37,666 nucleotides of DNA from a virus. The stretch spans positions 1 through 37,666 of IMG/VR virus record IMGVR_UViG_3300027749_003950. One strand, 5' to 3'. Positions 1 to 28,753 of this stretch are shown here, piece after piece; position 1 is the first letter of the stretch; each line of letters starts with the position of its first letter. Below the pieces are notes generated by a model that was given only the letters and a program-made list of their open reading frames with translations, searched no databases and had not been told where the DNA came from. Position numbers and translations under genes: made by a program.

Positions 1-1956
1 CTGGCTGTGCTGCTGGGCGACGAGCGTGTGCTGGAAAATTTTGGTCGTGCAGGCAATACCTATGCCAAGAGTGCTTTGAAGATTGTCAAGGACAACATAA
101 GATCAAACCCCGGCCCAGCGGCTGCATTGCTGACCAAAATGAAAACCAATATGGATAGTCTTGCTACCAAGGCCATTCACTCGGGCACCACTGCCAAATA
201 CACCAGTATCAATACCAAGAATGGCTATGTGGAATTCCGTAGTCCCGGTGGCGACTGGCTGGATGCCAACTTCAGTTTGATTGAACCCACACTGCTGAGA
301 TTTGTTGTGGCCCTGGATGCTGCAATTGATCCTGAAAAGTATCGTCAAGAATATCAAAAGAAATTATACAAGTTGCTGACCGCTGACAACAAAGACGACA
401 GCACCATCCGTTACTTTGTGGACTATGTGGCTGGCAAAATACCCAAGGCTGCGTTGCGCAGTTTTGTGAAGCAGGCACAACTGGAACGCGGATTGAAAAA
501 GAATCCTGTTCAGGAGCCAGCTCCGAGCCTGGCTCGGGACCCGAGCATTGGTCCAAGACAACGCTATGTGGTCAAAAATGCAGCAGGCTCTCCTGTGACC
601 ACAGTAGCAGCGTCAGATGCCGACTCAGCACGGATCCTGGCCAATCGTTGGTTGCGACAACAAAATCCTGGAATCAATACTAATGAGTTCAGCGTTGAGC
701 CAGAAACTGCTGAGAATCAGATACAAAACTATCATATCAGCGACACACAAGGTGGTGTGGTTCGCATGGCGTTCCGTGCTGGCAGTGATGAGGAAGCCCT
801 GGATCGATGGGAAATATACAATTACAGTCACCCAAGCCAGGGCGGCACCCGCCTGTCACGCGAGGATGGAACAACAGTAACAGAGCCCGGTGCACCAGCA
901 GTAGGCAGCACCACGGATCTACAACAGCAACGCCAAGCAGCCGCAGCACCCACTCCAGTGCCTGGAGTGCAAGACATTGACATAGATATCCCCATAGCAC
1001 AACCCAGAGGCTTCTGGAACGGCCAATGGAAAATTGTAGACGGCAACACTGGAGAAGAATTGTATAGATTTGGCGGCATAGGCAACAGTCAAGCAGATGC
1101 CAACAGAATTGCAGGTCAATGGGTTAGAACCAACAGCATCAGTGTGCCAACCGAAGTGTATCCGGTTCTGAGCGATGGCTCAGAACTGAGCGAAAGCCGC
1201 ACACAAGAAGACTATGATCCGTCAAATCCTCCGGGACCCGAATCGCCGCCCCAAATGCCAGCAGGAACAATCAAGGTAGATGTCAGTGACATGTACGACT
1301 GGTACAAACTGGGACAACACATTAGCAATCTCAAGGGCATTGACAAGTCAACCCTGGGCAAAGGACCACCCAGCACAGTAATGGCGTTTGGATCTGAAGA
1401 ATTGGAAAACATGTACAGTCATGCACTCACACGCCTGGGATTGAAAACACATGATCTCGATGAACCCGGCGAAGAAGACGTTGACGAACAGGTTATAAAT
1501 GAACTAAAAATCAACAATGTCTCGGGCATTGGGGCAGTGCCCAACAATCAACAAATTGGATATCAAGGTCTGCAAGTGGTCATGCGTCCCAGTATGTTTT
1601 TGGAACTGGCATCGCCTCTAGACGCTAAATCTGCAGACGAGCGTGAGACCATTGAATACATCAAAAAGAACCTGGACGAAAAAGGCGTTGGTGCACCTTG
1701 GCTCACAGTGGTGATTCCCGAAGCCTGGGAATCAGAAGATTTTAGCCAGATGGCACATGTGAGTAATCATGACGGTCGCCACAGAATGCACAGTATTCTA
1801 GAGCAAGAAGGCAATGATCCTGTGGAAGTACACATCATTGTGCCACACATGCGTCGCAGACACATCACTGATGCCATGGTTGATCACTTGAGATCTGGCG
1901 TGCTGAATCAACAGGGGCAGTATGTGAGCGGTCCTGTATTTGGAGCAGCCAAATGA
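1..1956 (+). CDS. Amidoligase-type multidomain phage protein, 5' end cut by window
   Basis: The reading frame is open at the left edge, so the true start lies upstream. The first ~165 residues resemble the C-terminal half of the amidoligase family (COOH-NH2 ligase fold) of T4-like aquatic phages: a GNTYAKSAL segment, then Y-V-E-F-R-S-P-G-G-D (about nt 226-255), the Glu/Arg strand typical of this fold. Three loosely related ~50-residue modules follow (near nt 560-700, 725-850 and 1010-1160), each with a Tyr/Trp-rich beta start and a D-A-x3-A-x-x-W-like helix, joined by Pro/Ala/Gln linkers. The last ~140 residues contain N-H-D-G-R-H-R-M (about nt 1767-1790), as in ParB/sulfiredoxin-like folds. 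The protein sits in the late virion block. A role in linking peptides or modifying cell wall is inferred; no substrate can be named. The stop overlaps the next ATG. Confidence 0.6.
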   Translation: MAVLLGDERVLENFGRAGNTYAKSALKIVKDNIRSNPGPAAALLTKMKTNMDSLATKAIHSGTTAKYTSINTKNGYVEFRSPGGDWLDANFSLIEPTLLRFVVALDAAIDPEKYRQEYQKKLYKLLTADNKDDSTIRYFVDYVAGKIPKAALRSFVKQAQLERGLKKNPVQEPAPSLARDPSIGPRQRYVVKNAAGSPVTTVAASDADSARILANRWLRQQNPGINTNEFSVEPETAENQIQNYHISDTQGGVVRMAFRAGSDEEALDRWEIYNYSHPSQGGTRLSREDGTTVTEPGAPAVGSTTDLQQQRQAAAAPTPVPGVQDIDIDIPIAQPRGFWNGQWKIVDGNTGEELYRFGGIGNSQADANRIAGQWVRTNSISVPTEVYPVLSDGSELSESRTQEDYDPSNPPGPESPPQMPAGTIKVDVSDMYDWYKLGQHISNLKGIDKSTLGKGPPSTVMAFGSEELENMYSHALTRLGLKTHDLDEPGEEDVDEQVINELKINNVSGIGAVPNNQQIGYQGLQVVMRPSMFLELASPLDAKSADERETIEYIKKNLDEKGVGAPWLTVVIPEAWESEDFSQMAHVSNHDGRHRMHSILEQEGNDPVEVHIIVPHMRRRHITDAMVDHLRSGVLNQQGQYVSGPVFGAAK

Positions 1957-2198: not shown

Positions 2199-3377
2199 AT
2201 GAGATCAAGTGAATTTTTAAACGAAGCCGGACGTGATGGCATACCAATGACAGATGCTGAATTTGCAGCGCAACAAGCACAAGGTGCAAAAAATCTGGAT
2301 TCTATCAAGGGCTTTGGTAGAAAAATTGCCGGCGCACTCGGCGGCGGAGCTCAGGCAGCAACACCATATCCTGATGCTGCCACAGCAAGAGCCAGTCTTA
2401 CCCCAAGCCAACTAAAGTGGTTGGGTGGTGCAGATCCCATGGACAAATATGTCATGGCAAGAATGCCAGCAGCGTTACCTGGTGAAACTGTTGCGGCAGC
2501 ACCAGTGAATGTTGTAAACAGGAATGATGGCAACCCACCACCGTTGCAACCTGGTACAGGATATGGCGATGACGACACTTCTGTATTTGCACCAACTCCT
2601 GTAGCAACGGCAGCGACTCCAGCAACAAATCCTGTGGCCAATGCAGTAGCAGCCAGTGGCCAACCCGACGACGTAACCGGTGTGGATGCAGCCGTGGCAG
2701 CAAATGCTGCAAATACTGCAAATACTGTGCAAACCACTACTCCTCCTGCTAAGAAACTAGCACCAGTTGATCCTGGCACTAAAGAATTACAAACATGGTT
2801 AAAAAATAAAGGATATAACATAGGTAAATTTGGTGCCGACGGCCGATTTGGACCTGATACTGCAAAAGCAATTGCTGCGTGGAAGGCCAAAGGTCTTAAA
2901 CCAGGTAATCCAGAATTTGAAGAGTATGCTGCATTACTTACCAAGTCGCATGGCATGGATTACCGCGAAAAGACAACTGCTCCAGCGGGCGGCGGTCGAG
3001 GCGGGCAAGGTGGACCAACTGCAAGTGAATTGGCGGGTGTTGCTCAAGGTGGACGTGGCGGCCAAGGCGGACCAACTGCAAGTGAATTAGCAGCAATTCC
3101 GTCTTCGCAATCTGCAACCCCAATCCCGACGACGCCGCCTCCTAAACCGGTGATAGGTCAACCCATGGCAAATGGTAAAAGAGCAAGTCAATCAGATGTG
3201 ATGAGCTGGGATAATCAATACGGTCCTGCCGGAGCAGAAAGAGCAGCATCAGCGGCATCCGCAGCCAAAGCAAAACAACAATACAATCCTTATGCTCAAA
3301 ACAAAGTTTCTGAAACAACAGCTTTTGAAGAAAGTGTAAATCGCATGCGTCGCTTGAGCACCTTGCTCAAAGGATAA
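2199..3377 (+). CDS. Peptidoglycan-binding domain protein with head-targeting-like leader
   Basis: A 392-residue protein preceded by a purine-rich ribosome site (AAAAAAGG). It begins M-R-S-S-E-F-L-N-E-A, closely like the T4 internal-protein leader M-K-T-Y-Q-E-F-I-A-E-A, with a predicted L-N-E cut after residue 9. Residues ~190-235 form a PG_binding_1-type domain (E-L-Q-T-W-L-K-N-K-G-Y, then G-R-F-G-P-D-T-A-K-A-I). The flanks are Ala/Pro/Thr/Gln-rich linkers. A Gly-rich piece, G-G-R-G-G-Q-G-G-P-T-A-S-E-L-A, is repeated twice (about nt 2992-3092). The C-terminus (E-E-S-V-N-R-M-R-R-L) resembles that of the 965-residue protein. It probably binds cell-wall peptidoglycan as a virion component. Packaging in the head is inferred from the leader only. 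Confidence 0.75.
   Translation: MRSSEFLNEAGRDGIPMTDAEFAAQQAQGAKNLDSIKGFGRKIAGALGGGAQAATPYPDAATARASLTPSQLKWLGGADPMDKYVMARMPAALPGETVAAAPVNVVNRNDGNPPPLQPGTGYGDDDTSVFAPTPVATAATPATNPVANAVAASGQPDDVTGVDAAVAANAANTANTVQTTTPPAKKLAPVDPGTKELQTWLKNKGYNIGKFGADGRFGPDTAKAIAAWKAKGLKPGNPEFEEYAALLTKSHGMDYREKTTAPAGGGRGGQGGPTASELAGVAQGGRGGQGGPTASELAAIPSSQSATPIPTTPPPKPVIGQPMANGKRASQSDVMSWDNQYGPAGAERAASAASAAKAKQQYNPYAQNKVSETTAFEESVNRMRRLSTLLKG
2992..3092 (+). repeat. Tandem Gly-rich repeat inside the peptidoglycan-binding protein
   Basis: Two copies of a ~54-base unit encode Gly-Gly-Arg-Gly-Gly-Gln-Gly-Gly-Pro-Thr-Ala-Ser-Glu-Leu-Ala. The second half, coding GGPTASELA, is almost identical between copies. It lies in a flexible linker after the peptidoglycan-binding domain and probably varies in copy number between relatives. 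Confidence 0.7.
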
Positions 3378-3378
3378 C

Positions 3379-4038
3379 ATGAGATCTTGTGATTTTTTGC
3401 CTCGTAGCAGTAGAGTTCTAGCCGAGGCTGTGGATCCTAGTGTGCCGGGCAAAATGTATTCTGTACAAGCAGGAGACACCTTGGAAGAATTGGCTCAGGC
3501 CGCTGATACCACTGTGTCTGGTTTACTTTATATGAATCCGGACATTCCTGCCACTGGACAAATAACTTCAGGCAGCAAAATAAAATTACCCAACCTGGGC
3601 GAATTTGCTCAGGGACCTGCTGTAGGTCCGTCCACCAAGATAAAGAATCCAGTCAATCCCAATGAAATCAAATCATACCTGAGCAGCAAAGGACTAGACG
3701 CCAATCAAGTTGCAGGTATCATGGCCAACATCAAGGCCGAATCCAGTTTTGACAGTGGAGCTCTGGGCGACAACGGAACCAGTGGCGGCCTAGTACAACA
3801 TCACGGTCCGCGATTTAGTGGCATGGTTCAGGCCGCCGGTGGCCAAGACTCTTGGCAAAAGAACTGGAAGGCACAACTGGACTATGCACTAAGCGAGCCA
3901 GCAGGTGCTCGTTACAAGAACATGACTTTCCCCACGCCACAAGCTGCCACCACGTGGTGGACCATAAACTTTGAGATTCCTGCCAACAAAGAACAGCAGG
4001 CAGCAATCAGAAGTCAGAGTGCAAGTCAATTTGCCTGA
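3379..4038 (+). CDS. LysM plus phage tail lysozyme-like protein
   Basis: A 219-residue cell-wall protein starting one base after the previous stop. It opens M-R-S-C-D-F-L, the shared leader, with V-L-A-E-A at ~residue 17 as a likely prohead-protease site. Residues ~26-72 are a LysM domain (Y-S-V-Q-A-G-D-T-L-E-E-L, N-P-D-I, then G-S-K-I-K-L-P). Residues ~90-219 match the phage tail lysozyme family (PF18013-like): I-M-A-N-I-K-A-E-S-S-F-D-S-G, G-T-S-G-G-L-V-Q-H-H and the late W-W-T-I-N-F-E segment; the Glu in K-A-E-S is the likely catalytic acid. It would bind and cut peptidoglycan during entry. Having both a head leader and a muralytic domain suggests a packaged or entry-associated enzyme. Confidence 0.8.
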   Translation: MRSCDFLPRSSRVLAEAVDPSVPGKMYSVQAGDTLEELAQAADTTVSGLLYMNPDIPATGQITSGSKIKLPNLGEFAQGPAVGPSTKIKNPVNPNEIKSYLSSKGLDANQVAGIMANIKAESSFDSGALGDNGTSGGLVQHHGPRFSGMVQAAGGQDSWQKNWKAQLDYALSEPAGARYKNMTFPTPQAATTWWTINFEIPANKEQQAAIRSQSASQFA

Positions 4039-4349: not shown

Positions 4350-4548
4350 AATAATGGAAGACATCTCTGCGGGTACCAGTGGGTCGGGCAGCATGGCCAC
4401 TATCAGCCAGCCCATGAGCATGGTCTCAAGATCAGGCGGTTCCTTGCTCACAGGTAAATACTCTACAGATCCTACGCCTAACACGCCCAAGGAATACAAA
4501 AGGAACAAAAATGCTCGTGGACAGTTTAAAAACTCTATTAGGAACTGA
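4336..4548 (+). CDS. Small phage protein with head-targeting-like leader
   Basis: A 70-residue protein. I chose the ATG at 4336 rather than the in-frame TTG two codons upstream, because it gives M-R-A-Y-E-I-M-E-D-I, matching the neighbours' leader with an I-M-E cleavage-like site. The body is Ser/Gly/Met-rich, then T-P-N-T-P-K-E-Y-K-R-N-K-N-A-R and F-K-N-S, a C-terminal motif I recall from many small proteins of T4-like aquatic phages. No enzyme domain is visible. The gene overlaps both neighbours, in different frames: 14 bases with the gene at 4047 and 38 with the Dps-like gene. Confidence 0.65.
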   Translation: MRAYEIMEDISAGTSGSGSMATISQPMSMVSRSGGSLLTGKYSTDPTPNTPKEYKRNKNARGQFKNSIRN

Positions 4549-4951
4549 ATTTGCCTATTATGTCAAAGTACATGGCTTTCACTGGAATGTTGAAAGTCCG
4601 GACTTTTATCAATATCACAAATTTCTCCAAAAGATCTACGAAGATGCCTACAGCGCAATAGATCCCACAGCTGAATACATACGAAGTCTTGGAGAATATG
4701 CACCGGGCAGTCTAGAACGTTTTCTAGAACTCAGTGTAATTTCTGCACAAACCAAAATCCCTCGTGCCAGACTCATGCTTGAAGAACTGCTGGCCAACAG
4801 TGGGCAAATGGTAGAACTACTTGATCAATGCTTTGCTGAAGCCACACAAGAAAACAAACAAGATGTGGCCAATTTTATTGCTGAACGACTGAGTCAGACC
4901 AACAAGTTTGCCTGGCAACTGCGCAGCAGTCTGAAAGAAAATAGAGCATGA
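4511..4951 (+). CDS. Dps/ferritin-like protein
   Basis: A 146-residue four-helix protein of the Dps/ferritin-like family, whose members bind DNA and/or oxidise and store iron. Family marks are V-K-V-H-G-F-H-W-N-V near residue 20, then F-Y-Q-Y-H-K-F-L, I-Y-E-D-A-Y and A-I-D-P-T-A-E-Y-I-R-S-L-G; these His, Asp and Glu positions match the inter-subunit ferroxidase site. Length is normal. It lacks the Lys-rich N-terminal tail that E. coli Dps uses to bind DNA, and also lacks the leader of its neighbours. Lying in the late block suggests a virion-associated or late protective role (inference), for example shielding packaged DNA from oxidation. Its stop overlaps the next ATG. Confidence 0.8.
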   Translation: MLVDSLKTLLGTEFAYYVKVHGFHWNVESPDFYQYHKFLQKIYEDAYSAIDPTAEYIRSLGEYAPGSLERFLELSVISAQTKIPRARLMLEELLANSGQMVELLDQCFAEATQENKQDVANFIAERLSQTNKFAWQLRSSLKENRA

Positions 4952-5622
4952 GCAACAGCATCGCCAACATACTAAAACGTCTGGCTGTGATAGAGGCCGA
5001 CACCAGTCCTGTCAAAACAAAGACAGGGCTCACGGCACAACAAAAATCAGTGCCGCAATTGCCGGCCTTGTTCAAGCCCGAAACTGTGTCTCCGGTACTG
5101 GGCAGCAACAAGCAGTCCAAGCCCTTTGGCCGGTACATGGTAGGCGATGATGTGGAACCCACTCAGACTGCACTAGCAGAGCGTATGGCCGAAATCGACG
5201 AAGACATGCTCAGCAAAGTCAAAAAAGATCTCACACAGTATCTAGACAAGTTGGAAAAACAAAATCACTTGGACAGTCACTTGGTCAGCAAGGCCAAACG
5301 AGATCTTGAAATTGGTGACGATGAAGAAGTAGACGAAGATCCCACAGAAACCGAAACTGGCGGCGAAGATTATGTTCCGCCGCCCACAATCAATCCTGTG
5401 GTGGCCGAAGCTGGCCCTGTAAAAACTATCACTCTTGAAGATGGCACCTGTTTAGAATGCTGGGGCGATCAAAGCCGCGGCTTTGAAATCCGTCACCAGG
5501 GTCGTGTGTTGCCCAGTCGATTCAGTAGTCTGGATGAAGCAGACATGGCTGTGAGAATGTTTCAGGCACATAGAAAAAATGCTGCCAGAAATTCCTCAGC
5601 AGATTACATAGAAGAAGCATGA
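4948..5622 (+). CDS. Putative internal/core-type head protein with cleavage-like sites
   Basis: A 224-residue, mostly acidic protein of unknown function. Residues ~75-125 are a charged, probably coiled-coil helical stretch (A-E-I-D-E-D-M-L-S-K-V-K-K-D-L) that I recall from T4-like aquatic phages. Two near-matching sites frame the middle: R-L-A-V-I-E-A-D at residue 16 and N-P-V-V-A-E-A-G at residue 154, each followed by P-V-K-T. They look like prohead-protease cuts after Glu. Release at E154 would free a ~70-residue C-terminal domain (T-L-E-D-G-T-C-L-E-C-W-G ... F-S-S-L-D-E-A-D-M-A). No catalytic motif is visible. Scaffold or internal-protein identity is inferred from location and sites. Confidence 0.55.
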   Translation: MSNSIANILKRLAVIEADTSPVKTKTGLTAQQKSVPQLPALFKPETVSPVLGSNKQSKPFGRYMVGDDVEPTQTALAERMAEIDEDMLSKVKKDLTQYLDKLEKQNHLDSHLVSKAKRDLEIGDDEEVDEDPTETETGGEDYVPPPTINPVVAEAGPVKTITLEDGTCLECWGDQSRGFEIRHQGRVLPSRFSSLDEADMAVRMFQAHRKNAARNSSADYIEEA

Positions 5623-5623
5623 C

Positions 5624-8521
5624 ATGATACTTGACGAATTTTTCAAACCCAAATCCACTGCTGTTCTGGCAGAAGATCATGGCCCAAAAGATGCACTTGC
5701 TAAACTAGCCAATGGTCAACGAGTAACAGCTGGTGATATAGTGTACAAATCAGACACTCACCATGTGCTGGACATTGAGGGTGCAGCAAAACTAAATGCA
5801 AGATACGCTCAACAATTGCCTATCAACATCACACAAGCTGAATGGGACGACGCGGTCAAATACGGCGGTTTAGATAGCGCACAAGTGTTGGATCGTCAGA
5901 AAGGCGAGCTAGATCAGGGTCGCGACTACAACATACAGCGGGACAAAGATGAACGTGCCAAGAAATCTGGAGATTATTCCCAACAGGATATTGGTGCCAG
6001 CAAAGTAGATCGATTTGGAAGATCACGACCAACACCAATGGCATTTAGCAACCTTGGTCGTCCCATGGATCAAGATAATCCGGCACAAGCACAGAAAGCA
6101 TATGCACCACAAGATCGTCCGGCACAGCCACAATCTGCGTCTAATACATCAGCCCGTAATGGTTGGAAACAGGAGACAGGTGATGAAGTGAAATTTTTCA
6201 TTGACTCTGAACCTGCTTATTATGCTGTGATGGATCGCTTTGGTGACCACATTGAATTTCGCGGTGATGACCTGGTTGCTCCACAGCGACTATGGTCGGC
6301 CATACAACAAACAGCCGGAGATGCAGGCGGTGCAGCAGACATAGCAGGACTTGAAGATGACCGCATGGGGACAGATAATGAGTTGGATGAGCAAGGTGTG
6401 GCGGAAGGCCCTCAAGAAGATGCTAAGTTCACTCCTCGACTACAAATCAGAAGTCAAATAGAAACTGCGTTAGACCAATATTTAGACCCTGAAAAAGTAG
6501 CAGGTGCTTATACGGATATTCAATACTACAAGCACGACGGCAAAGTTTATGTTGAAGTATTATTCAACTATACAGATGGACAAAAGATTGGTCCCAAACA
6601 AAGAAAGCAATTTTTAGTCAACAAAGATTTTACACTGACTCCTATCAAGAAGCAAGGTGTGGCGGAAGGCAGGGAACAAGATTATTTGTCTCAGGTACCC
6701 AATTTGACTTGGAAACCAGTAAGCCGTAGTGTATGGAATACCATACAAGACGAAGGGCTTGATGAAGAACAAGATGCACCCAAGCATACTGATTGGATAA
6801 TGGCTTCTTTGACAATCAGTCCTGAAGATTCACAGGCATTACAAGCATTTGATAGTGATGCTATTGAAGATTTCAACAGATTTGACATACATCTAAAATC
6901 TCGCCATCCCGGACTCACTGACTTAATTGATTATGATAACGGTACTGTAACCATTGTAAAGCCAAGTCAGATGCAAGGTGTGGCGGAAGGCTCAAGAACT
7001 CCACAAGATTGGGAAGTAAAAAGTGCAGTGTGGCGCCAAGATAAACAAGGTGTCTATCTAGAACCACAAGATGTAAAATCACATTTTGTTCGCGCCGACC
7101 GTAGTAGTCGCGCCGAAGAGAAAGCAAAGAGAGAATATGAACCAGGTCGTGGTACTTGGGAAATTCATCCTCGTGGTAATAAACAGCAAGATGTGGCGGA
7201 AGGCGCTCCAGAACTATTGAAGAAAGAAATGCCAACACATCGTCATGCTGAAAAATTATTAGCACAAAATGGTGTTAGTAAAGACGATCCAGATTATCAC
7301 CATCATCTTAGTAACACAATAAAACATCTTCGTCAGTTTGGTAACATTGATTTGATTAACAAGAGTGACGAGCAAGGCATGGCGGAAGGCTCAGCCGCAG
7401 ATGGATCTGTCAACTACACCCTGGGACACACTCCTGATGCAGAGTATGTGTATAGCATTTATAGAGATGGCCAAAAAGAAGGAACATACCACAGTGTTGA
7501 CCAAGCCCGAGAGATCATGGGTAATATGAAGTTGACTAGTCCCAACCGTGAATACAAAATCAAGCGTGGCGCAAGAAACAAAATGGCAGGCCCTGCGAGT
7601 CAACTGCCCGAACAAGACATGGCGGAAGGCCACGGTAACTATGCAGGTGATCGACCAGTTAATCTTGGTGGTGTGTCCATGAAAAAGATACAGATAGGTG
7701 ACACAGTACGGTACATTGACCAAAAAGCACAAGTGGTTGACATGAGCCGAGACCGAGAGCATGCTCGTATCACAATTCCGTCCAGTGCTACTACAAAAAC
7801 AGTATTGACATCTGATCTAAGACAACTGGGGCGAGGCGTTTCGGAAGGCTCTGACAGAATTGCTGCCAACAAACAAGACAGAGTAGAAGCATTGGAAAAT
7901 AAACTAAAAGCCAAGGGCTATGCTAGAACCAAAGACTCTGATGGCGGTGAATATCAATACCGCTGGACTAGAGACGGTGCTCCCACTTATGTGGTAAATT
8001 ATCGATCGGGTGCCAACGGATATGCAGAATTCTGGAAAGAGCAAGACATGGCTGAAGCAGGTTACGATTCCGGCGACTACTCCAACGATAGACAAAGTGA
8101 TGACTACGGTAGAGATTTGGTGCCCACAGGTTCAGGTGGTTCACGTTTTGTAAATCACGGAGCTCACGATCATACTCGTGGCCGCCCTGCAAAAACTCAT
8201 GGATTTAGTAAAAATTTACCTGCGGATCCATTTGGTCGCACAGCCGGAAAGATCCCACACAGTGCCAGACCAAAACAAGAACTTGATCCGTTTAGAGAAC
8301 TAGACGAACTCAGCCCTGCTACTCTTGCCAGATACAAAACCAAAGCTGGTGCTGCTGCCACTGCTGCTGATTCCGCAGGTGATCGCAAGACTGGTGATCG
8401 TCGCTTCAGTGGAATTGTCAAGGCCACAAAGAAACAGTTTGATCAGGATGCCAAACAGTCAGCCCAAGCAGTTCATGAAAGTAGACTCAGACTCATGGCC
8501 AGCATTATCAAGACACAGTGA
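5624..8521 (+). CDS. 965-residue cassette polyprotein with eight V/M-A-E-G cleavage-like sites
   Basis: The protein begins M-I-L-D-E-F-F, then A-V-L-A-E-D at residue ~20, the leader and cut pattern of its neighbours. Residues ~160-245 hold a small alpha/beta domain (K-F-F-I-D-S-E-P-A-Y). From residue 257 on, the hexapeptide Q-G/D-V/M-A-E-G recurs with Glu at 261, 348, 455, 526, 588 and 668, then R-G-V-S-E-G at 741 and Q-D-M-A-E-A at 811. The segments between are 62-107 residues and unlike each other; one (668-741) resembles an SH3/KOW-like barrel, another (526-588) is His-rich and helical. The C-terminal part has R-E-L-D-E-L-S-P-A-T-L-A-R-Y, a motif common in phage proteins. I infer that the head-maturation protease cuts after each Glu and releases packaged mini-proteins. 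No enzyme motif is visible in any module. Confidence 0.7.
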   Translation: MILDEFFKPKSTAVLAEDHGPKDALAKLANGQRVTAGDIVYKSDTHHVLDIEGAAKLNARYAQQLPINITQAEWDDAVKYGGLDSAQVLDRQKGELDQGRDYNIQRDKDERAKKSGDYSQQDIGASKVDRFGRSRPTPMAFSNLGRPMDQDNPAQAQKAYAPQDRPAQPQSASNTSARNGWKQETGDEVKFFIDSEPAYYAVMDRFGDHIEFRGDDLVAPQRLWSAIQQTAGDAGGAADIAGLEDDRMGTDNELDEQGVAEGPQEDAKFTPRLQIRSQIETALDQYLDPEKVAGAYTDIQYYKHDGKVYVEVLFNYTDGQKIGPKQRKQFLVNKDFTLTPIKKQGVAEGREQDYLSQVPNLTWKPVSRSVWNTIQDEGLDEEQDAPKHTDWIMASLTISPEDSQALQAFDSDAIEDFNRFDIHLKSRHPGLTDLIDYDNGTVTIVKPSQMQGVAEGSRTPQDWEVKSAVWRQDKQGVYLEPQDVKSHFVRADRSSRAEEKAKREYEPGRGTWEIHPRGNKQQDVAEGAPELLKKEMPTHRHAEKLLAQNGVSKDDPDYHHHLSNTIKHLRQFGNIDLINKSDEQGMAEGSAADGSVNYTLGHTPDAEYVYSIYRDGQKEGTYHSVDQAREIMGNMKLTSPNREYKIKRGARNKMAGPASQLPEQDMAEGHGNYAGDRPVNLGGVSMKKIQIGDTVRYIDQKAQVVDMSRDREHARITIPSSATTKTVLTSDLRQLGRGVSEGSDRIAANKQDRVEALENKLKAKGYARTKDSDGGEYQYRWTRDGAPTYVVNYRSGANGYAEFWKEQDMAEAGYDSGDYSNDRQSDDYGRDLVPTGSGGSRFVNHGAHDHTRGRPAKTHGFSKNLPADPFGRTAGKIPHSARPKQELDPFRELDELSPATLARYKTKAGAAATAADSAGDRKTGDRRFSGIVKATKKQFDQDAKQSAQAVHESRLRLMASIIKTQ
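6392..8059 (+). repeat. Eight dispersed 18-base direct repeats encoding Q-G-V-A-E-G
   Basis: Copies start at 6392, 6653, 6974, 7187, 7373, 7613, 7832 and 8042. The first three are identical over 18 bases (CAAGGTGTGGCGGAAGGC). The fourth to sixth differ by 1-3 bases in the first half, and the last two are diverged. TGGCGGAAGGC is invariant in the first six, including a GCG alanine codon. Spacings are 261, 321, 213, 186, 240, 219 and 210 bases, all multiples of three, so the frame is kept. Sequences between copies are unrelated. Confidence 0.9.
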
Positions 8522-21781: not shown

Positions 21782-22480
21782 ATGGACACAAGTAAAAATT
21801 TATCGCAAGTGATTCGCGATCGAATGAATGGAGACGGCAAAAGATTCTGGGCCGGAGATAACATTAGTGATTATCTTGAAGAAGACGACAAAGAAATCTT
21901 GATTCGAGAAGCCACAGTGGCATTTGAACAAGTGTTAGACACATTGTTGATTGATCGCAAAAACGATCCCAACAGCCAAGGCACAGCCCGACGCTTGGCC
22001 AAGATGTACTACAACGAAATAATGGCAGGAAGATATGAACCAGCACCAGACGCAACAGCATTTCCAAATGATTCGCAAGACCGTTACGAAGGTATGTTGG
22101 TGGTACGTAGTGAGTTGCGTTCTATGTGCAGTCATCATCATCAGCCCGTTAGTGGTGTCGCTTACATTGGCATCATCGCCGCACAAAAACTTATTGGTCT
22201 TAGCAAGTATACTCGTATTGCTCAGTGGTGTGCTCGTCGCGGGACTCTCCAGGAAGAACTTTGCAACGACATTGCCAGAGAAATAATGAAGGCCACCGAC
22301 GCAGAAGATGTGGCAGTGTACATACAGGCTATTCATGGCTGCTGTGAAAATCGCGGCATCATGGCACACTCTAGTCTCACACAGACCACAGTATTAAAAG
22401 GTGCATTTAACACTGATCAAAGCACCAAGAAAGAGTTCTTTGACAACATCAAACTGCAACAGGAGTTTGCACCGCGATGA
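21782..22480 (+). CDS. folE: GTP cyclohydrolase I
   Basis: A 232-residue FolE, normal length for the family. It converts GTP to dihydroneopterin triphosphate, the first step of both folate and 7-deazaguanine synthesis. Family marks are G-T-A-R-R-L-A-K-M-Y near residue 60, S-M-C-S-H-H-H-Q-P (zinc Cys and His ~115-119), I-G-L-S-K-Y-T-R-I and H-G-C-C-E-N-R-G-I (second zinc Cys ~188). Its own consensus promoter, with QueD and QueE nearby, points to deazaguanine supply for DNA modification. The stop overlaps the ATG of a 39-residue ORF. Confidence 0.95.
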   Translation: MDTSKNLSQVIRDRMNGDGKRFWAGDNISDYLEEDDKEILIREATVAFEQVLDTLLIDRKNDPNSQGTARRLAKMYYNEIMAGRYEPAPDATAFPNDSQDRYEGMLVVRSELRSMCSHHHQPVSGVAYIGIIAAQKLIGLSKYTRIAQWCARRGTLQEELCNDIAREIMKATDAEDVAVYIQAIHGCCENRGIMAHSSLTQTTVLKGAFNTDQSTKKEFFDNIKLQQEFAPR

Positions 22481-22596
22481 AACAGTACATTTCCAACCAG
22501 GCCCGCACTGTGTTTTTGCCCTGGGAACCGGGCATGATTGAATGGTTGCAGGCCAACTATCCCTACAGTAGATATCATGTGGTGGAGGTTGCATGA
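22477..22596 (+). CDS. 39-residue coupled small ORF
   Basis: A 39-residue ORF from an ATG overlapping the folE stop (ATGA) to a TGA that overlaps the ATG of the HIT gene in the same way. The product has an aromatic core (F-L-P-W-E-P-G-M-I-E-W-L and Y-P-Y-S-R-Y). No known domain. The double 4-base overlap, the usual gene joint in this genome, is the main argument that it is translated. Confidence 0.6.
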   Translation: MKQYISNQARTVFLPWEPGMIEWLQANYPYSRYHVVEVA

Positions 22597-22997
22597 CACA
22601 GTATGACACACTGGAGCATGCTGCCCGCATGGGTTCTGCACCCTGGACACAAACGGTTCCAGACCTGAGCGACTTTCACGTGGCAGTGTTTCGTGATCTG
22701 TTTCCAGTCACTCACGGTCACTTGTTGTTTGTGCCCAGATTCAATACCGTGGCAGTGATTCGAGACTGTTTTGAAGCTGCTATATTTGAAGGTAATCGAA
22801 TGTTCAGAGCCGGTGAATGTGATGCATTCAACATAGGCATGAACTCGGGTACTGCTGCCGGACAAACAGTAATGTATCCACATGTGCATTTGATTCCAAG
22901 GCGAACTGGTGACTGTGCTGATCCTGTGGGTGGTGTACGGGCAGTAGTACATGGTCAAGCCAACTATCATTCTGGTGGTTATCAATTGCCGTCATAA
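22593..22997 (+). CDS. HIT-family nucleotide hydrolase-like protein
   Basis: A 134-residue histidine-triad protein. Y-P-H-V-H-L-I-P near residue 91-98 fits the H-phi-H-phi motif, and G-H-L-L-F-V-P is the usual first strand. The third His of the classical triad is replaced in this stretch (H-V-H-L-I-P-R-R), so catalysis may be altered. G-M-N-S-G-T-A-A-G-Q-T and H-V-H correspond to the nucleotide-binding loop and active site. HIT enzymes act on nucleoside phosphoramidates or dinucleotides. Substrate here is unknown; position between folE and queD suggests a link to nucleotide metabolism. Confidence 0.75.
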   Translation: MTQYDTLEHAARMGSAPWTQTVPDLSDFHVAVFRDLFPVTHGHLLFVPRFNTVAVIRDCFEAAIFEGNRMFRAGECDAFNIGMNSGTAAGQTVMYPHVHLIPRRTGDCADPVGGVRAVVHGQANYHSGGYQLPS

Positions 22998-23054
22998 GTA
23001 CTGATCTAACAGCGGTCTTTGAGCATCATCCCGCTATACAAACTCTGCTGCCTA

Positions 23055-23063
23055 TGCTATAAT
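23055..23063 (+). promoter_or_regulatory. Extended -10 promoter for the queD gene
   Basis: TGCTATAAT (23055-23063) is a perfect extended -10 element. No convincing -35 lies 17 bases upstream. The bases after it (ACACATAGG) resemble those after the promoter copies at 33.0-34.7 kb. AGGAG and the ATG at 23081 follow, leaving a leader of only ~11 bases. Confidence 0.65.
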
Positions 23064-23080
23064 ACACATAGGAGAAAATC

Positions 23081-23563
23081 ATGGCAAAGAAATATTTTTC
23101 AACAAAAACATACAAGCAAATTGGACCTGTTGCTTATCGTCAGTGGCGTGCCCAAAGCCACTGCAATCTAATTCATGGTTATGCCATGAGCTTTCACTTT
23201 GAATTTGAAGCAGACACCCTGGATGCTAGAAACTGGGTTACAGACTTCGGCGGACTAAAGCCACTCAAGGCCAGTCTTGAAGAATGGTTTGACCACACCT
23301 TGCTGGTAGCACAGGATGATCCCATGCGTGAACACCTGCTGGAACTGGGCCGACTCAAATTGGCCAAGATCACAGAAGTTGAAAAAACCGGATGCGAAGG
23401 CATTGCTGACTTCCTGTACGAGTATGTGAACACAATCTTCTTGCCCAACTGCGGTAGCGAAGAAGCGGCTCGTGTCTGGTGCTGCAAGGTAGAAGTTCGC
23501 GAAACAGACTCTAACATGGCTGGTCGACAAGGACATCGTGAGGACAATGAGTTCCAGGACTGA
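23081..23563 (+). CDS. queD: QueD-like 6-carboxytetrahydropterin synthase
   Basis: A 160-residue T-fold enzyme that would turn the FolE product into 6-carboxytetrahydropterin. A-Q-S-H-C-N-L-I-H-G-Y-A-M-S-F-H-F contains the catalytic Cys (C28) and zinc-type His (H32, H39); the usual HGH is HGY here. T-D-F-G-G-L-K (54-60) is the classic D-F-x-x-L-K, F-D-H-T-L-L follows, and V-E-V-R-E-T near the end supplies the substrate-binding Glu. An extra R-L-K-L-A-K-I-T-E-V segment makes it longer than E. coli QueD (121). It has its own promoter and lies between folE and queE. Confidence 0.9.
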   Translation: MAKKYFSTKTYKQIGPVAYRQWRAQSHCNLIHGYAMSFHFEFEADTLDARNWVTDFGGLKPLKASLEEWFDHTLLVAQDDPMREHLLELGRLKLAKITEVEKTGCEGIADFLYEYVNTIFLPNCGSEEAARVWCCKVEVRETDSNMAGRQGHREDNEFQD

Positions 23564-24378
23564 TGGATATCAGTGTATTATTGCCCACTAGAGGGCGGTC
23601 GGATGCTCTCATGAGCAGCATCGAAAGTCTACGCAGTCTTGCGGAAGATTTTGACACCATTGAAATCCTGTTTGGTATTGACAATGATGATGTTGTGGGC
23701 ATGGAGAACATGCTGCACAACGTACTTCCCTGGATCGAGACTCACAAAATCAATCACAGGATAGTTGTGTTTGAACCATATGGTTATAATAATTTACATC
23801 GATATGTGAATGGCCTGGCCGAGAACAGCAAAGGCGCCTGGTTGTTTTTCTGGAACGACGATGCAGTAATGACCACTACAGGATGGGACGCACGTATACG
23901 TGAGCGAATTGGCGAGTTTAAACTGCTGAGTGTACACACGCACAATGAACACCCTTACAGCATTTTTCCTATCCTACCAAGAACCTGGTTTGAAATTCTA
24001 GGACACATTAGTCAACACAGCAGCAATGATGCGTATGTGAGCCAGATTGCTTATTATCTAGACATATTTGAACGCATTGAAGTGTATTGTGATCACAATC
24101 GTTACGATATAACTGGTATCAACAATGACGCAACCTATCAACAACGCCGTGTAATGGAAGGTGATCCTGGTCAACCCGGAGATCTAAATCATCCCGACAT
24201 GATAAAATTACGTGGACATGATACTGCTACCCTGGCTACCTGGATGCAAGACCACGGCCATGACCTGACATTTTTTGTTGACGCCTGGGAGGGCAGGCAG
24301 GATCCCTGGGTCAAAATGCGAGCCAACGACATCAACAATCAAGTTGATGCCACAGCACGAAGAGTAAATACCACATGA
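23563..24378 (+). CDS. GT-A family 2 glycosyltransferase-like protein (copy 1)
   Basis: A 271-residue protein opening with D-I-S-V-L-L-P-T-R-G-R, the family 2 nucleotide-sugar strand, then L-F-G-I-D-N-D-D and F-F-W-N-D-D-A-V-M, a DxD-like metal site. It closely resembles the protein at 26297: same length class, shared G-A-W-x-F-F-W-N-D-D-A-V-M-T-T and H-P-Y-x-I-F-P-I-L-P-R segments. The two copies flank the cobalamin radical SAM gene. It would transfer a sugar to an unknown acceptor. The start overlaps the queD stop (TGATG). Confidence 0.75.
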   Translation: MDISVLLPTRGRSDALMSSIESLRSLAEDFDTIEILFGIDNDDVVGMENMLHNVLPWIETHKINHRIVVFEPYGYNNLHRYVNGLAENSKGAWLFFWNDDAVMTTTGWDARIRERIGEFKLLSVHTHNEHPYSIFPILPRTWFEILGHISQHSSNDAYVSQIAYYLDIFERIEVYCDHNRYDITGINNDATYQQRRVMEGDPGQPGDLNHPDMIKLRGHDTATLATWMQDHGHDLTFFVDAWEGRQDPWVKMRANDINNQVDATARRVNTT

Positions 24379-26300
24379 CAAAAAAGAAAATCAGCTTCGT
24401 TCAACCCAATTTTCAGCAAGGTCCCAAAGAGTTCAATGCCTACTATTTGCCTTATTCAGCCGGTGTAATCTTGAGTTATGCCCTGGCCAGCAAAAAAGTC
24501 AGTGCAGCATGGGAATTGGATCACTTGGTCTGGCGTAGAGAGCCAATTGAGGCCCTGGCCGCAAAACTCAGCACCAGTGATGTAGTGGCATTCTCAACTT
24601 ATGTGTGGAATCACCGATACAACTACAGATTGGCACAAAGAGTCAAGGCCCTTAACCCCATGTGTTTGATTGTGTTTGGCGGTCCTGAGCCTGCTATCGA
24701 ACATCCTGACTTGTTTGAAAAAGAGCCTTTCATGGATCTTGTGATCAAGATGGAAGGCGAAATGACTTTCCGACACATCCTAGAAGACCACGGATCTGAT
24801 TACACACATATTCCTGGGCTCTTGATCAATTCTCCCACTGGCCTGATCAACACTGGAGATCCAAAACGTATCAATGATCTAGATGAGGTTCCTAGTCCAT
24901 ATCTAACAGGCATATTTGATCGCATGATGGCTGACAATCCTGATGTTATCTGGAATGCCACACTGGAAACGAACCGCGGCTGTCCATATCAATGCACATT
25001 CTGCGACTGGGGCAGTCTTACCTACAACAAGGTCAAGAAGTTTGAACTTGAACGTGTGTATGACGAACTGGACTGGATTGGCGAACACTGTGGATTTGTC
25101 ACAATCACTGATGCCAACTTTGGTATGTTTGTAGAACGTGACAACATGATCGTGGACAAACTGATTGAAGTTCAAAAGCGTTGGGGCAAACTGGAAAGTT
25201 TCTCCATGACCTGGGCCAAGAATCAAAAGAACGAAGTAGTAGATATTGTGAAGAAACTGATCAACGAGAGTCCCAACTTTGGACAAGGTCTCACTGTCAG
25301 TGTACAGAGCATGGACAATGACGTGCTGGAAAATATCAAACGTAGAAATCTTGATCAGCACAAGATTGATGAGATCTTTGCGTTATGTGACAAAAACAAT
25401 ATTCCTGTGTACACAGAACTGATTCTGGGCCTGCCTGGCGAAACAGTGGAGTCCTGGAAAGAAGCATTCTGGAAGATCTTCCGAGCAGGCAATCACGGTG
25501 GTATCAACATCCTACAATGTCAGCTGTTGGAAAATGCAGAGATGAACCTGTTGCAGAAAAAACTCTACAAGCTGGAATCAGTGCCGGTGTATGACTACAT
25601 GAGTGGCAGCTATGGTGATGTTGATCTTAATGAAAGCATTGACGTGGTGGTAAGCACCAAGACCATACCACGAGAAACCATGTTGGATACTCTGGTGTGG
25701 TCAAGTTTTATCCAGACCTTTCACATCAACGGACTGTCAACCTACATTGCCAGATATCTGGCCAAGCATCAAGATATTGATTACTCCGAGTTCTACGAAG
25801 ACCTGTATGCATGGGTACAAAAAGATCTTTGGTTTCAGTTGCAATTTATTGAGACACGCAGTTATTTTGAAAACTGGATGACCAAGGGTCGTATTGATCA
25901 TCCTAGAATTGGCAACATTGAAGTGTTTGGCTGGAACCTCATGCACCGAACCACCTTGTACATGGTCAAAGACAAAATGATCAACTATGTGTTTGAATCA
26001 CTTGACAAATTCCTGAGTAACCACTATAATATAGATTCACAAGTGAAACGCCAATTGTTGCAGTTTCAAAGGAACTATGTGATTGACTATAGAGATTTGA
26101 AATCTCTACCAATTACACAGGAATTTGATTATGACTTCTTGGGATATATCTTGGACAATACTGAATTGGAAAATAGCACTGTTTATCAATTTGCTACCAC
26201 AGAATCACCAAGCATGAGCGAAGATCGATTTTTAGAGAACATGTACTTTGGGCGAAAACGCAATTTTGGAAAAACCACTATCACATACGCAACAACATGA
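24375..26300 (+). CDS. B12-binding radical SAM protein
   Basis: A 641-residue protein of the cobalamin-dependent radical SAM class. Residues ~1-130 form a B12-binding-like Rossmann domain (V-A-F-S-T-Y-V-W-N, then I-V-F-G-G-P-E-P). C202-P-Y-Q-C206-T-F-C209-D-W is the CX3CX2C cluster, followed by T-D-A-N-F-G-M, S-V-Q-S-M-D-N-D-V and E-L-I-L-G-L-P-G-E-T, all typical of this class. The ~200-residue C-terminus is helical. Such enzymes do methylations or ring rearrangements; substrate unknown. Four-base overlaps with both twin glycosyltransferase genes suggest one translation unit and one product (inference). Confidence 0.88.
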   Translation: MTKKKISFVQPNFQQGPKEFNAYYLPYSAGVILSYALASKKVSAAWELDHLVWRREPIEALAAKLSTSDVVAFSTYVWNHRYNYRLAQRVKALNPMCLIVFGGPEPAIEHPDLFEKEPFMDLVIKMEGEMTFRHILEDHGSDYTHIPGLLINSPTGLINTGDPKRINDLDEVPSPYLTGIFDRMMADNPDVIWNATLETNRGCPYQCTFCDWGSLTYNKVKKFELERVYDELDWIGEHCGFVTITDANFGMFVERDNMIVDKLIEVQKRWGKLESFSMTWAKNQKNEVVDIVKKLINESPNFGQGLTVSVQSMDNDVLENIKRRNLDQHKIDEIFALCDKNNIPVYTELILGLPGETVESWKEAFWKIFRAGNHGGINILQCQLLENAEMNLLQKKLYKLESVPVYDYMSGSYGDVDLNESIDVVVSTKTIPRETMLDTLVWSSFIQTFHINGLSTYIARYLAKHQDIDYSEFYEDLYAWVQKDLWFQLQFIETRSYFENWMTKGRIDHPRIGNIEVFGWNLMHRTTLYMVKDKMINYVFESLDKFLSNHYNIDSQVKRQLLQFQRNYVIDYRDLKSLPITQEFDYDFLGYILDNTELENSTVYQFATTESPSMSEDRFLENMYFGRKRNFGKTTITYATT

Positions 26301-27139
26301 GTTTACTTGAACAAAATCCCAACATAGATATCAGTGTACTGTTACCAGTTCGCGAACGGCCGGGTCCCATGGAAGATTGTCTGCGCACACTAATCGACAA
26401 CGCATCAGCACCAGAACGAATTGAAGTGCTGATTGCGTTTGACGATGATGACACAGATACCATTGAGTATTTTGTTGATGTGGTTGCTCCGTATTTGGAC
26501 AGCAAAAAAGTCACATATACTGCCATGCAATTCAAACGGCTGGGCTACATCAGACTCAATGAATATCTCAACAAGCTGGCTGAAAATAGTCAAGGCGCAT
26601 GGATGTTCTTCTGGAATGACGATGCAGTAATGACCACTGCCGGTTGGGATGACGTCATACGCTCTCACAATGATCAGTTTGCCTTGCTCAGAGCTGAGAC
26701 CAATCATGAACATCCATATGCTATATTTCCCATCCTGCCACGCAAGTGGGTAGAAATTACAGGACACCTGTCTCCTCATCAAATCAATGATGCATGGACT
26801 AGCCAGATTGGATGGATGTTGGATATTGTGGTCACTATACCTGTGATGATCGAACATCAACGCTATGACCTAACTGGTATGAATGGCGATGACGTTTTCA
26901 AGAATCGTCCTATGCTGGAAGGTAATCCCAACAACCCCAGAGACTTCAATCATGTTACATGGCGTAAACGTCGCATGCAAGAAGCCATGATGATTGGCAA
27001 CTATCTAGCACCACTTGGCTACGATCTAACCCACTTCAGACTGGGCCTAGATAACAAAATAGATATATGGGAAAAGATGGCAGCCCTGGACAAAAAAGGC
27101 CTGATGAAACAATGGAAGATACACGAACTTGACCACTGA
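26297..27139 (+). CDS. GT-A family 2 glycosyltransferase-like protein (copy 2)
   Basis: A 280-residue paralogue of the gene at 23563. It has D-I-S-V-L-L-P-V-R-E-R, A-F-D-D-D-D-T-D and F-F-W-N-D-D-A-V-M-T-T-A-G-W-D, then H-P-Y-A-I-F-P-I-L-P-R. The copies are diverged but clearly related along their length, so the duplication is old or came by separate transfer. It may glycosylate the same acceptor at another site or with another sugar (inference). Its start overlaps the radical SAM stop, and its end overlaps the methyltransferase start. Confidence 0.75.
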   Translation: MSLLEQNPNIDISVLLPVRERPGPMEDCLRTLIDNASAPERIEVLIAFDDDDTDTIEYFVDVVAPYLDSKKVTYTAMQFKRLGYIRLNEYLNKLAENSQGAWMFFWNDDAVMTTAGWDDVIRSHNDQFALLRAETNHEHPYAIFPILPRKWVEITGHLSPHQINDAWTSQIGWMLDIVVTIPVMIEHQRYDLTGMNGDDVFKNRPMLEGNPNNPRDFNHVTWRKRRMQEAMMIGNYLAPLGYDLTHFRLGLDNKIDIWEKMAALDKKGLMKQWKIHELDH

Positions 27140-27908
27140 ACTAATAGACAAAATCAAGCAGTACTGGAATGCACAGCCCTGCAACATCAAGCACAGTTTG
27201 AGTGTGCCTGGTACAGAACAGTACTGGAATGAAGTTACTGAACGTAGATTTTTTGTAGAGCCGCATCTGCGTGACTTTGCTGGTTTTCACTTGTGGCGTG
27301 GCAAACGTGTGCTGGAAATAGGATCCGGTATTGGATCTGATGCTGTGGAATTTGCACGCCATGGTGCTGACTACGTGGGCATTGATCTTTCTGCAGAATC
27401 TGTGGCCATGAGTCGTCAACGATTTGACCTGTTTGATCTAGCTGGAGAGTTCCATGTGATGGATGCTGCTGATAGTGCAGCCGTGGCCAGTCTGGGACAG
27501 TTTGATCTGGTGTACTCATGTGGTGTATTGCATCACTATCCTGATATGACTGCATGCTTGGACAATATTCATAATGCATTGAAGCCCAATGGTGAATTCC
27601 GTATGCTGGTGTATGCAAAAAATTCCTGGAAGTATGCCATGATCCAAAAGGGTCTGGACCAATTTGAAGCACAATCCGATTGCCCATATGCCAAAGCCTA
27701 CAGCCGAGAAGAAATTTACGATCTACTACAAGGACAATTTGAGGTCCTAAGGATTAGACAAGATCATAATTTCATGTATAATGTACCCAAGTACCGTCAA
27801 GGCGAGTACGAACTAGAACCTTGGTTTGCTGCCATGCCCGAAGACATGCGAGCAGCAGTCAAAGAATATCTAGGATGGCATTTGTTGATTAAAGCACGGA
27901 AAATATGA
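27129..27908 (+). CDS. SAM-dependent methyltransferase
   Basis: A class I methyltransferase of ~259 residues. V-L-E-I-G-S-G-I-G-S-D-A is motif I, G-I-D-L-S is motif II, and F-D-L-V-Y-S-C-G-V-L-H-H-Y-P plus L-K-P-N-G-E-F are motifs IV-V. The N-terminus, I-K-Q-Y-W-N-A-Q-P-C-N-I-K-H-S, is a signature I recall from phage and bacterial sugar- or small-molecule methyltransferases. The only early in-frame start is the TTG at 27129, inside the end of the previous gene, so the start is uncertain by a few codons. It ends overlapping queE. Confidence 0.82.
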   Translation: MTTELIDKIKQYWNAQPCNIKHSLSVPGTEQYWNEVTERRFFVEPHLRDFAGFHLWRGKRVLEIGSGIGSDAVEFARHGADYVGIDLSAESVAMSRQRFDLFDLAGEFHVMDAADSAAVASLGQFDLVYSCGVLHHYPDMTACLDNIHNALKPNGEFRMLVYAKNSWKYAMIQKGLDQFEAQSDCPYAKAYSREEIYDLLQGQFEVLRIRQDHNFMYNVPKYRQGEYELEPWFAAMPEDMRAAVKEYLGWHLLIKARKI

Positions 27909-28753
27909 GCAAACTAAAAATAGCAGAGCTGTTTTACAGCATACAAGGTGAAGGACGTTACATGGGGGTGCCCAGTGTGTTCTTGAGAACATTTGGATGC
28001 AACTTTAAATGTGCGGGCTTTGGAATGCCGCAGGGCAAATCCAGCCAAGAGGTTGAAGCAATTGCCGCACGTATCACAGAATTCAAAGATTACACTGAGC
28101 TTCCACTTGTCAGCACAGGCTGTGACAGCTACGCCAGCTGGGATCCGCGATTTAAAGATCTAAGTCCAATGCTTGAAAGCAATGCTATTGTAAATCGCAT
28201 TATGGAAATACTTCCGCAAAAGCGTTGGGAAGATGAGCATCTGGTTATCACAGGTGGTGAGCCCTTGCTGGGATGGCAACGTGCTTATCCAGACCTGCTG
28301 TCACATGCTAGTATGAATAGACTCAAAGAGATCACATTCGAGACAAACGGTACTCAAAAACTTGATTCCAAATTTAAAGAATATTTGACAGACTGGACCC
28401 TAGGTAGCGACGAAAGAGAAATTACATTCAGTGTCAGTGCCAAACTCAGCTGCTCTGGTGAATCAAGACATGAAGCTATTCAGCCAGAGATTGTGTGCGA
28501 GTACCAAGACTTTGGCAACACATATCTCAAACTGGTAATTGCCACAGAGCAAGATGCCGAAGAAGCATTGGAAACAGTCGACATCTATCGTGCAGCCGGA
28601 TTTACAGGACATGTTTATCTAATGCCAGTAGGTGGTGTGGAAAGTGTGTATGCTTTGAACAACCGTGCTGTGGCAAACTTTGCCATGAAGAACGGATTGC
28701 GTTATAGTGATCGGCTGCAGGTGCCCTTGTTCAAGAACGAATGGGGCACTTGA
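27905..28753 (+). CDS. queE: QueE-like 7-carboxy-7-deazaguanine synthase with split cluster motif
   Basis: A 282-residue radical SAM enzyme that would make 7-carboxy-7-deazaguanine. F-Y-S-I-Q-G-E-G-R near residue 10, F-L-R-T-F-G-C-N-F-K-C at 26-36 and I-T-G-G-E-P-L-L near 115 are QueE hallmarks; E-T-N-G-T follows. The iron-sulfur cysteines are C32 and C36, but position 39 is Phe. The third Cys appears to be C73 in T-G-C-D-S-Y-A-S-W, which corresponds to the usual C-D-T-x-Y-x-W, so ~34 residues are inserted inside the CX3CX2C motif. I recall the same form in related phages. It overlaps the methyltransferase gene by 4 bases. Confidence 0.88.
   Translation: MSKLKIAELFYSIQGEGRYMGVPSVFLRTFGCNFKCAGFGMPQGKSSQEVEAIAARITEFKDYTELPLVSTGCDSYASWDPRFKDLSPMLESNAIVNRIMEILPQKRWEDEHLVITGGEPLLGWQRAYPDLLSHASMNRLKEITFETNGTQKLDSKFKEYLTDWTLGSDEREITFSVSAKLSCSGESRHEAIQPEIVCEYQDFGNTYLKLVIATEQDAEEALETVDIYRAAGFTGHVYLMPVGGVESVYALNNRAVANFAMKNGLRYSDRLQVPLFKNEWGT

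Follow-up and report, generated by a model that had tools for sequence, protein, structure and literature searches.

An open reading frame of 965 codons in a stretch of viral DNA (IMG/VR record IMGVR_UViG_3300027749_003950, positions 1 to 37,666; this whole stretch of 37,666 nucleotides is referred to as the window) probably encodes a cassette polyprotein of a T4-type jumbo phage that is cut by the prohead protease into packaged mini-proteins, a reading to which we assign a probability of roughly 0.7 on the basis of sequence comparison. The polyprotein would be translated as a single chain whose capsid-targeting leader takes it into the prohead core, where a gp21-type prohead protease would cut after the Glu of each Q-G-V-A-E↓G site (h-x-E↓; h, hydrophobic; the arrow marks the candidate cut). 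The head would then contain, alongside the DNA, some eight small independent proteins, and these mini-proteins would probably be injected, so that the protein is probably a swappable kit of small proteins packed in the head in one piece. The DNA of the site, about 20 bp long, would also provide shared homology for in-frame cassette swaps, each restoring a cut site. We infer the cleavage itself, the packaging of the window protein and its injection, the evidence that suggests cleavage being comparative.

As the earlier note on this DNA had observed, eight sites divide the 965-residue protein into unrelated modules. They are of the form Q/R-G/D-V/M-A/S-E-G/A, a single site (RGVSEG) having R in the first position where the other seven have Q. 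The sites, assigned by motif (QGVAEG three times and QDVAEG, QGMAEG, QDMAEG, RGVSEG and QDMAEA once each), surround seven dissimilar modules, which lie between an N-terminal part of 261 aa and a C-terminal part of 154 aa. The parts of the polyprotein are as follows (handles of the type G006 and L130 are ours; G006 is a 262-kb relative).

5624..8521, + strand: cassette polyprotein ORF, 965 aa and stop (ORF call and translation)
5624..5674, + strand: leader MILDEFFKPKSTAVLAE↓, 17 aa, candidate targeting peptide or propeptide ending L-A-E (from the sequence; L-T-E in G006)
5675..6406, + strand: N-terminal region from the leader to the first site; last part 96% identical in G006 DNA, the identity ending at the site
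6392..6409, + strand: site 1, QGVAE↓G (CAAGGTGTGGCGGAAGGC)
6407..6667, + strand: module 1, 87 aa; 91% identical and whole elsewhere in G006 (L128/L129)
6653..6670, + strand: site 2, QGVAE↓G
6668..6988, + strand: module 2, 107 aa; 86% identical from boundary to boundary in L336/L337, a free 104-aa gene in L338-L341
6974..6991, + strand: site 3, QGVAE↓G
6989..7201, + strand: module 3, 71 aa; a pattern search gave no relatives
7187..7204, + strand: site 4, QDVAE↓G
7202..7387, + strand: module 4, 62 aa; 95-97% identical and whole in L130, L131/L043 and L132, 87% in L133/L134, 45% in L024/L090
7373..7390, + strand: site 5, QGMAE↓G
7388..7627, + strand: module 5, 80 aa; 92% identical in L127, also in G006 beside other neighbours
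7613..7630, + strand: site 6, QDMAE↓G
7628..7846, + strand: module 6, 73 aa, predicted to be a small barrel of SH3/Tudor/KOW-like type; 99% identical in L127, 57% in L046, 44% in L064
7832..7849, + strand: site 7, RGVSE↓G
7847..8056, + strand: module 7, 70 aa; G006 has a different cassette here and G034 lacks the module; a pattern search gave no relatives
8042..8059, + strand: site 8, QDMAE↓A
8057..8518, + strand: C-terminal module of 154 aa, containing ELSPATLARYKTKAG, a widely shared segment; phrog_26930 (unknown function)

When the protein was shuffled 20,000 times, the mean number of sites was 0.0024 and the maximum one, versus eight in the real protein, and the motif was absent from all six frames of the window outside this ORF. 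No similarity between modules was detected within the ORF at E<=1e-3. The 965-aa protein (P0001) gave no Pfam domain of any kind, hence no embedded peptidase, and its PHROGs match was confined to the C-terminal stretch. The leader, whose own L-A-E had been pointed out before, has the form of a T4-type targeting peptide (about 10-19 residues ending h-x-E); its counterpart at the same place in G006, MILDEFFKPNSTDNLTE, retains L-x-E among altered surrounding residues. The previous label of "late protein" gained no support from the promoter search, no T4-type late promoter (TATAAATA) being found upstream of the ORF.

The pattern of substitution at the sites points to a peptide signal. Among single-residue variants of QGVAEG, the Glu was altered 3 times versus 11-58 times at the other positions, and the nonsynonymous/synonymous ratio was 0.019 at Glu versus 0.11-0.32 at positions 2-4 and 6, making Glu the most constrained of the six positions. 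Position 3 was exchanged almost solely for M, I or L, and P3 was V, M, I or L in nearly all of 393 sites (A once). This double constraint, on Glu and on a hydrophobic position 3, is the pattern that would be expected of an h-x-E↓ signal.

Many modules also exist as free genes, whose products begin with a short N-terminal peptide, such as MRATEFITE, MKLSEIIIE, MRADEIINE or MRINELFE. Among 42 distinct free N-termini whose alignment with an internal module began at residue 1 or 2 of that module, h-x-E stood directly before the aligned module start in 23, 20 of which were not QGVAE-like themselves, as in the free versus fused pairs MRATEFITE↓DWNK and QGVAE↓DWQK, MKLSEIIIE↓GWSE and QGVAE↓GWSQ, and MRINELFE↓NFADG and QGMAE↓NFADG. 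The N-terminus of T4 IPIII/IPII reads MKTYQEFIAE↓A, the 10 residues before the arrow being the capsid-targeting sequence cut off by gp21 (PMC9026906). Since the final Glu of the free peptide aligns with the Glu of QGVAE, the internal site occupies the place of a targeting/cleavage peptide, and, as judged from these alignments, QGVAE↓ is equivalent to the N-terminal targeting or cut peptide of the free homologues. The Glu constraint and the targeting peptides of the free copies together give good comparative support to the earlier view that the sites are of the gp21-like h-x-E type. The reading of the product as a polyprotein is likewise well supported by comparison. With the first Met of each frame taken as the candidate N-terminus, an N-terminal h-x-E with Glu at residue 7-11 was present in 55 of 117 site-bearing ORFs (47%) versus 130 of 705 other ORFs of the same loci (18%). 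A C-terminal "RLAGL" motif in common with the scaffold was too weak a feature to be retained (6/141 vs 4/687).

Distant homologues of modules were found in cyanophage S-SCSM1, the virion of which has been analysed by mass spectrometry (PMC9602691): QFG06350.1, which has 69 aa and is annotated as belonging to the virion, matches part of the L047 polyprotein at 73% identity, and the virion NMN adenylyltransferase, which starts MKSFLQFLKE↓A, is weakly similar to other polyproteins.

These comparisons bear on the possibility that the protein is packaged uncut, as a multi-domain "polyvalent" protein that acts as one chain after injection and in which QGVAEG is a flexible linker and recombination joint. 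Injected proteins of 2-15 domains are indeed known (Iyer et al. 2017, PMC5512222), the linker is predicted to be disordered, and the DNA-level conservation described below fits a joint. However, a mere linker needs no near-unchangeable Glu with a hydrophobic P3, nor should it align residue by residue with the targeting/cut peptide of free homologues, and the modules match complete free proteins, for which reasons we regard an uncut chain as unlikely.

The sites are conserved at the DNA level beyond any effect of codon usage. In 151 sites, excluding those used to find the ORFs, the Ala codon was GCG in 89% versus 7% in the rest of the same ORFs, the Val codon GTG in 86% versus 23%, and the Gly codon GGT in 89% versus 44%. 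Nucleotide conservation spans two bases before the Gln codon through the Gly codon and is about zero outside, the coding DNA of the site thus forming a near-invariant block of about 20 bp with random flanks. In all carriers the first base of the first codon is free (CAA, AAA, GAA) and the next two are fixed, giving AAGGTGTGGCGGAAGG as the conserved DNA core. A synonymous spelling of the site had 62 matches in the whole collection; a GC-rich synonymous spelling had many matches, but only 3 of 104 were in multi-site ORFs, indicating that they are mostly chance. Because the near-invariant 20 bp or so are set between random flanks, we read them as short homology used in recombination, and the site block looks like a recombination joint as well as a peptide signal.

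In IMG/VR the exact site DNA pattern CAAGGYGTGGCGGAAGG gave at least 120 matches, and more than 100 contigs carry such polyproteins. Among the matches listed, 158 of 161 were in frame in long ORFs, and 113 of these 158 were in ORFs with at least two sites, up to eight. A motif acting purely in DNA recombination, or carried as a mobile-element passenger in a non-virion protein, with no role as a peptide, would account for codons that are near-invariant over about 20 bp between random flanks and for the far rarer synonymous spelling. Such an origin seems very improbable, given the in-frame position of nearly all listed matches, the stronger protein-level constraint on Glu than on its neighbours, and the fact that the equivalent free N-termini have h-x-E in common while lacking the other residues of the motif. 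A search of 257 Gb of bacterial and archaeal genomes gave 26 scattered matches to the site DNA, none of them with a module array.

Whole cassettes are exchanged between relatives, with joints at the sites. Module 4 recurs from residue 1 to 62 in three other loci (L130, L131 and L132), each time beside different modules, and the 86% identical relative of module 2 is on a 335-kb contig. In segments with 85-100% identity shared among 210 site-bearing ORFs, 36% of the ends fell at a site versus 8% at random, and 4 sites lay inside the segments versus 25 expected. The clearest example is G006, which has 98% identity to the window in the DNA polymerase. At the same locus it has a like leader and the same C-terminus, with modules 1-4 replaced by three other cassettes, an extra cassette between modules 5 and 6, and module 7 swapped; blocks of DNA identity between the two end at sites, and module 1 is found in G006 in a second polyprotein elsewhere in the contig. 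Many shared segments end where there is no QGVAE site, and cassette borders and cut sites therefore do not always coincide. The exchange presumably takes place by homologous recombination.

The modules, which recur intact in other polyproteins and also stand alone as genes, behave as the independent units that the earlier note had taken them for. An AlphaFold model of module 2 alone, from a six-row alignment, had pLDDT 83.5 and pTM 0.71 with disorder confined to its QGVAE tail, suggesting that the module folds on its own; it had no significant match in the PDB and one borderline match in BFVD, a free 121-aa myovirus protein. The small barrel predicted for module 6 weakly resembles Tudor and KOW domains. 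The modules of other carriers include NT5C, GNAT, SutA RNA-polymerase-binding (SutA-RBD) and DUF6321 domains.

No head genes, including gp21 and gp23, were found in the 37.7-kb window. For the prohead protease gene, which the earlier note wanted sought in the rest of the genome, the evidence comes from relatives: an S77 (gp21-type) protease was present in 10 of the 10 carrier contigs (119-374 kb) that have a T4-type gp23. The window polymerase, which groups the window with the other carriers, has a homologue in 15 of 16 tested carriers, at about 52-98% identity, and G001, whose polymerase is 88% identical, has both gp23 and S77. In G012 (L054) the homologous polymerase is split into separate pieces at 65.1-69.6 kb, possibly by an intron or inserted gene. 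In several large carrier contigs, including G006, the closest to the window, neither gp23 nor S77 was seen, and a gp23 model had no match in 13 carriers without a Pfam match, indicating that these contigs are fragmentary or encode a different capsid protein. The capsid proteins of relatives have, as read from their sequences, a candidate L-x-E↓[NS] site immediately N-terminal to the conserved core (HLAE↓N, NLLE↓N, MLAE↓N, YLKE↓N, HLAE↓S, LLAE↓S and YLAE↓S). Hence the candidate capsid consensus of relatives is not clearly different from that of the polyprotein, a difference that the earlier note had regarded as decisive against its proposal; P3 is Leu in the capsid candidates versus mostly Val, or Met, at the polyprotein sites.

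Cutting at the sites by some other protease, of the host or acting after injection, would agree with the position of the protease gene outside the window fragment and with the several large carrier contigs without an S77 match. Against it, h-x-E↓ is the class of gp21, every carrier that has a T4-type capsid protein also has S77, and the capsid candidates have L-x-E↓ sites of their own; we therefore consider another protease improbable and retain the prohead protease as the putative enzyme.

Three genes upstream of the polyprotein deserve mention.

2199..3377, + strand: gene for a protein with N-terminus MRSSEFLNE↓A and a peptidoglycan-binding domain (from N-terminus and domain)
3379..4038, + strand: gene for a protein with N-terminus MRSCDFLPRSSRVLAE↓A (LAE↓A), LysM and phage tail lysozyme (from N-terminus and domains)
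4948..5622, + strand: conserved gene directly upstream of the polyprotein; homologues in relatives directly precede their own, different polyproteins in several loci

The products of the first two might be packaged together with the polyprotein and serve to open the cell wall. Window positions 1-1956 encode a mosaic protein, open at its 5' end and without QGVAE sites, segments of which match different proteins in relatives, two of these starting MRAKEFITE and MRASEFLSE. At 4511-4951 there is a conserved 146-aa gene, near the polyprotein in many carriers, that PHROGs lists as DNA binding protein and whose product appears Dps/ferritin-like by eye. The genes for GTP cyclohydrolase, QueD-like, QueE-like, radical SAM and glycosyltransferase proteins at 21782-28753 likely serve 7-deazaguanine DNA modification. 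The earlier note had noticed neither the joint in the DNA, nor the exchange of cassettes, nor the targeting-type N-termini of the neighbouring genes.

Among cultured phages no full relative of the polyprotein was found: the 965-aa ORF had no tblastn match in 50,697 phage records, and Sinorhizobium phage Phosso and Agrobacterium phage Atu_ph07, whose polymerases are the nearest among isolates, have no polyprotein next to that gene. Several of the same modules occur in T4-like cyanophages (S-SM1, S-E7, P-SSM2), in the protein family T4-GC119, members of which are annotated "structural protein" in S-E7 and S-P4. The S-E7 member (L151, 4726-6315) has EGMSE↓G between modules; unlike the QGVAE polyproteins, with which it has several modules in common, the family has few or no QGVAE sites and no DNA joint of about 20 bp. 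The cyanophage GC119 proteins perhaps represent an earlier version of the same arrangement.

We judge the polyprotein to be a variant of the T4 internal-protein/prohead-protease system. It resembles IPI-IPIII and Alt in the short N-terminal peptide ending h-x-E↓, in the T4-type head genes of its relatives and in consisting of small, non-conserved proteins that vary between phages; but in T4 each internal protein has its own gene and one terminal cut (Alt two), whereas the present chain joins at least seven mini-proteins and repeats the cut signal internally. Several h-x-E cuts in one protein are also found in the T4 core proteins gp22 and gp67, which are degraded by gp21, but their products are scaffold remnants and not dissimilar, foldable, exchangeable proteins. 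Ejection proteins of phiKZ and SPN3US (e.g. gp53/gp54) are cut after Glu by a gp21 homologue (PMC10052503, PMC5694885), and some of these head proteins have several cut sites in the propeptide. In SPN3US, however, the motif is A-x-E, a propeptide is removed and no cassette polyprotein has been described; with V/M/I/L at P3, the present sites follow neither this motif nor the S/A/G-x-E of phiKZ. With polyvalent proteins the polyprotein has in common the many disparate domains, here seven dissimilar internal modules, as well as mosaic evolution and proposed injection; yet many polyvalent proteins are released by embedded peptidase domains, none of which was found here, and the window protein has uniform sites with a conserved DNA joint instead.

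The literature search returned no report of the QGVAEG motif and no paper joining prohead protease, internal proteins and polyprotein, the paper on polyvalent proteins (PMC5512222) being the only relevant one. T4 internal proteins with gp21 and polyvalent proteins are known parts, whose combination was in no paper found.

We know of no other phage system that makes many packaged proteins as one cassette polyprotein cut in the head, and this, if true, would be the first. The chances seem evenly balanced that the system works at the protein level like a gene cassette array, in which a joint of about 20 bp serves both as in-frame recombination homology and as capsid-protease cut site, so that packaging, release and delivery would follow automatically for each mini-protein swapped across a jumbo-phage lineage. 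A cut site that is defined and repeated could also help to load several proteins into a T4-like head. With the signature QGVAE↓G/AAGGTGTGGCGGAAGG, probable head-delivered proteins would be readable from metagenomes by the hundred, and, since most modules have no known function, it would give a testable list of candidates for the proteins that jumbo phages inject first.
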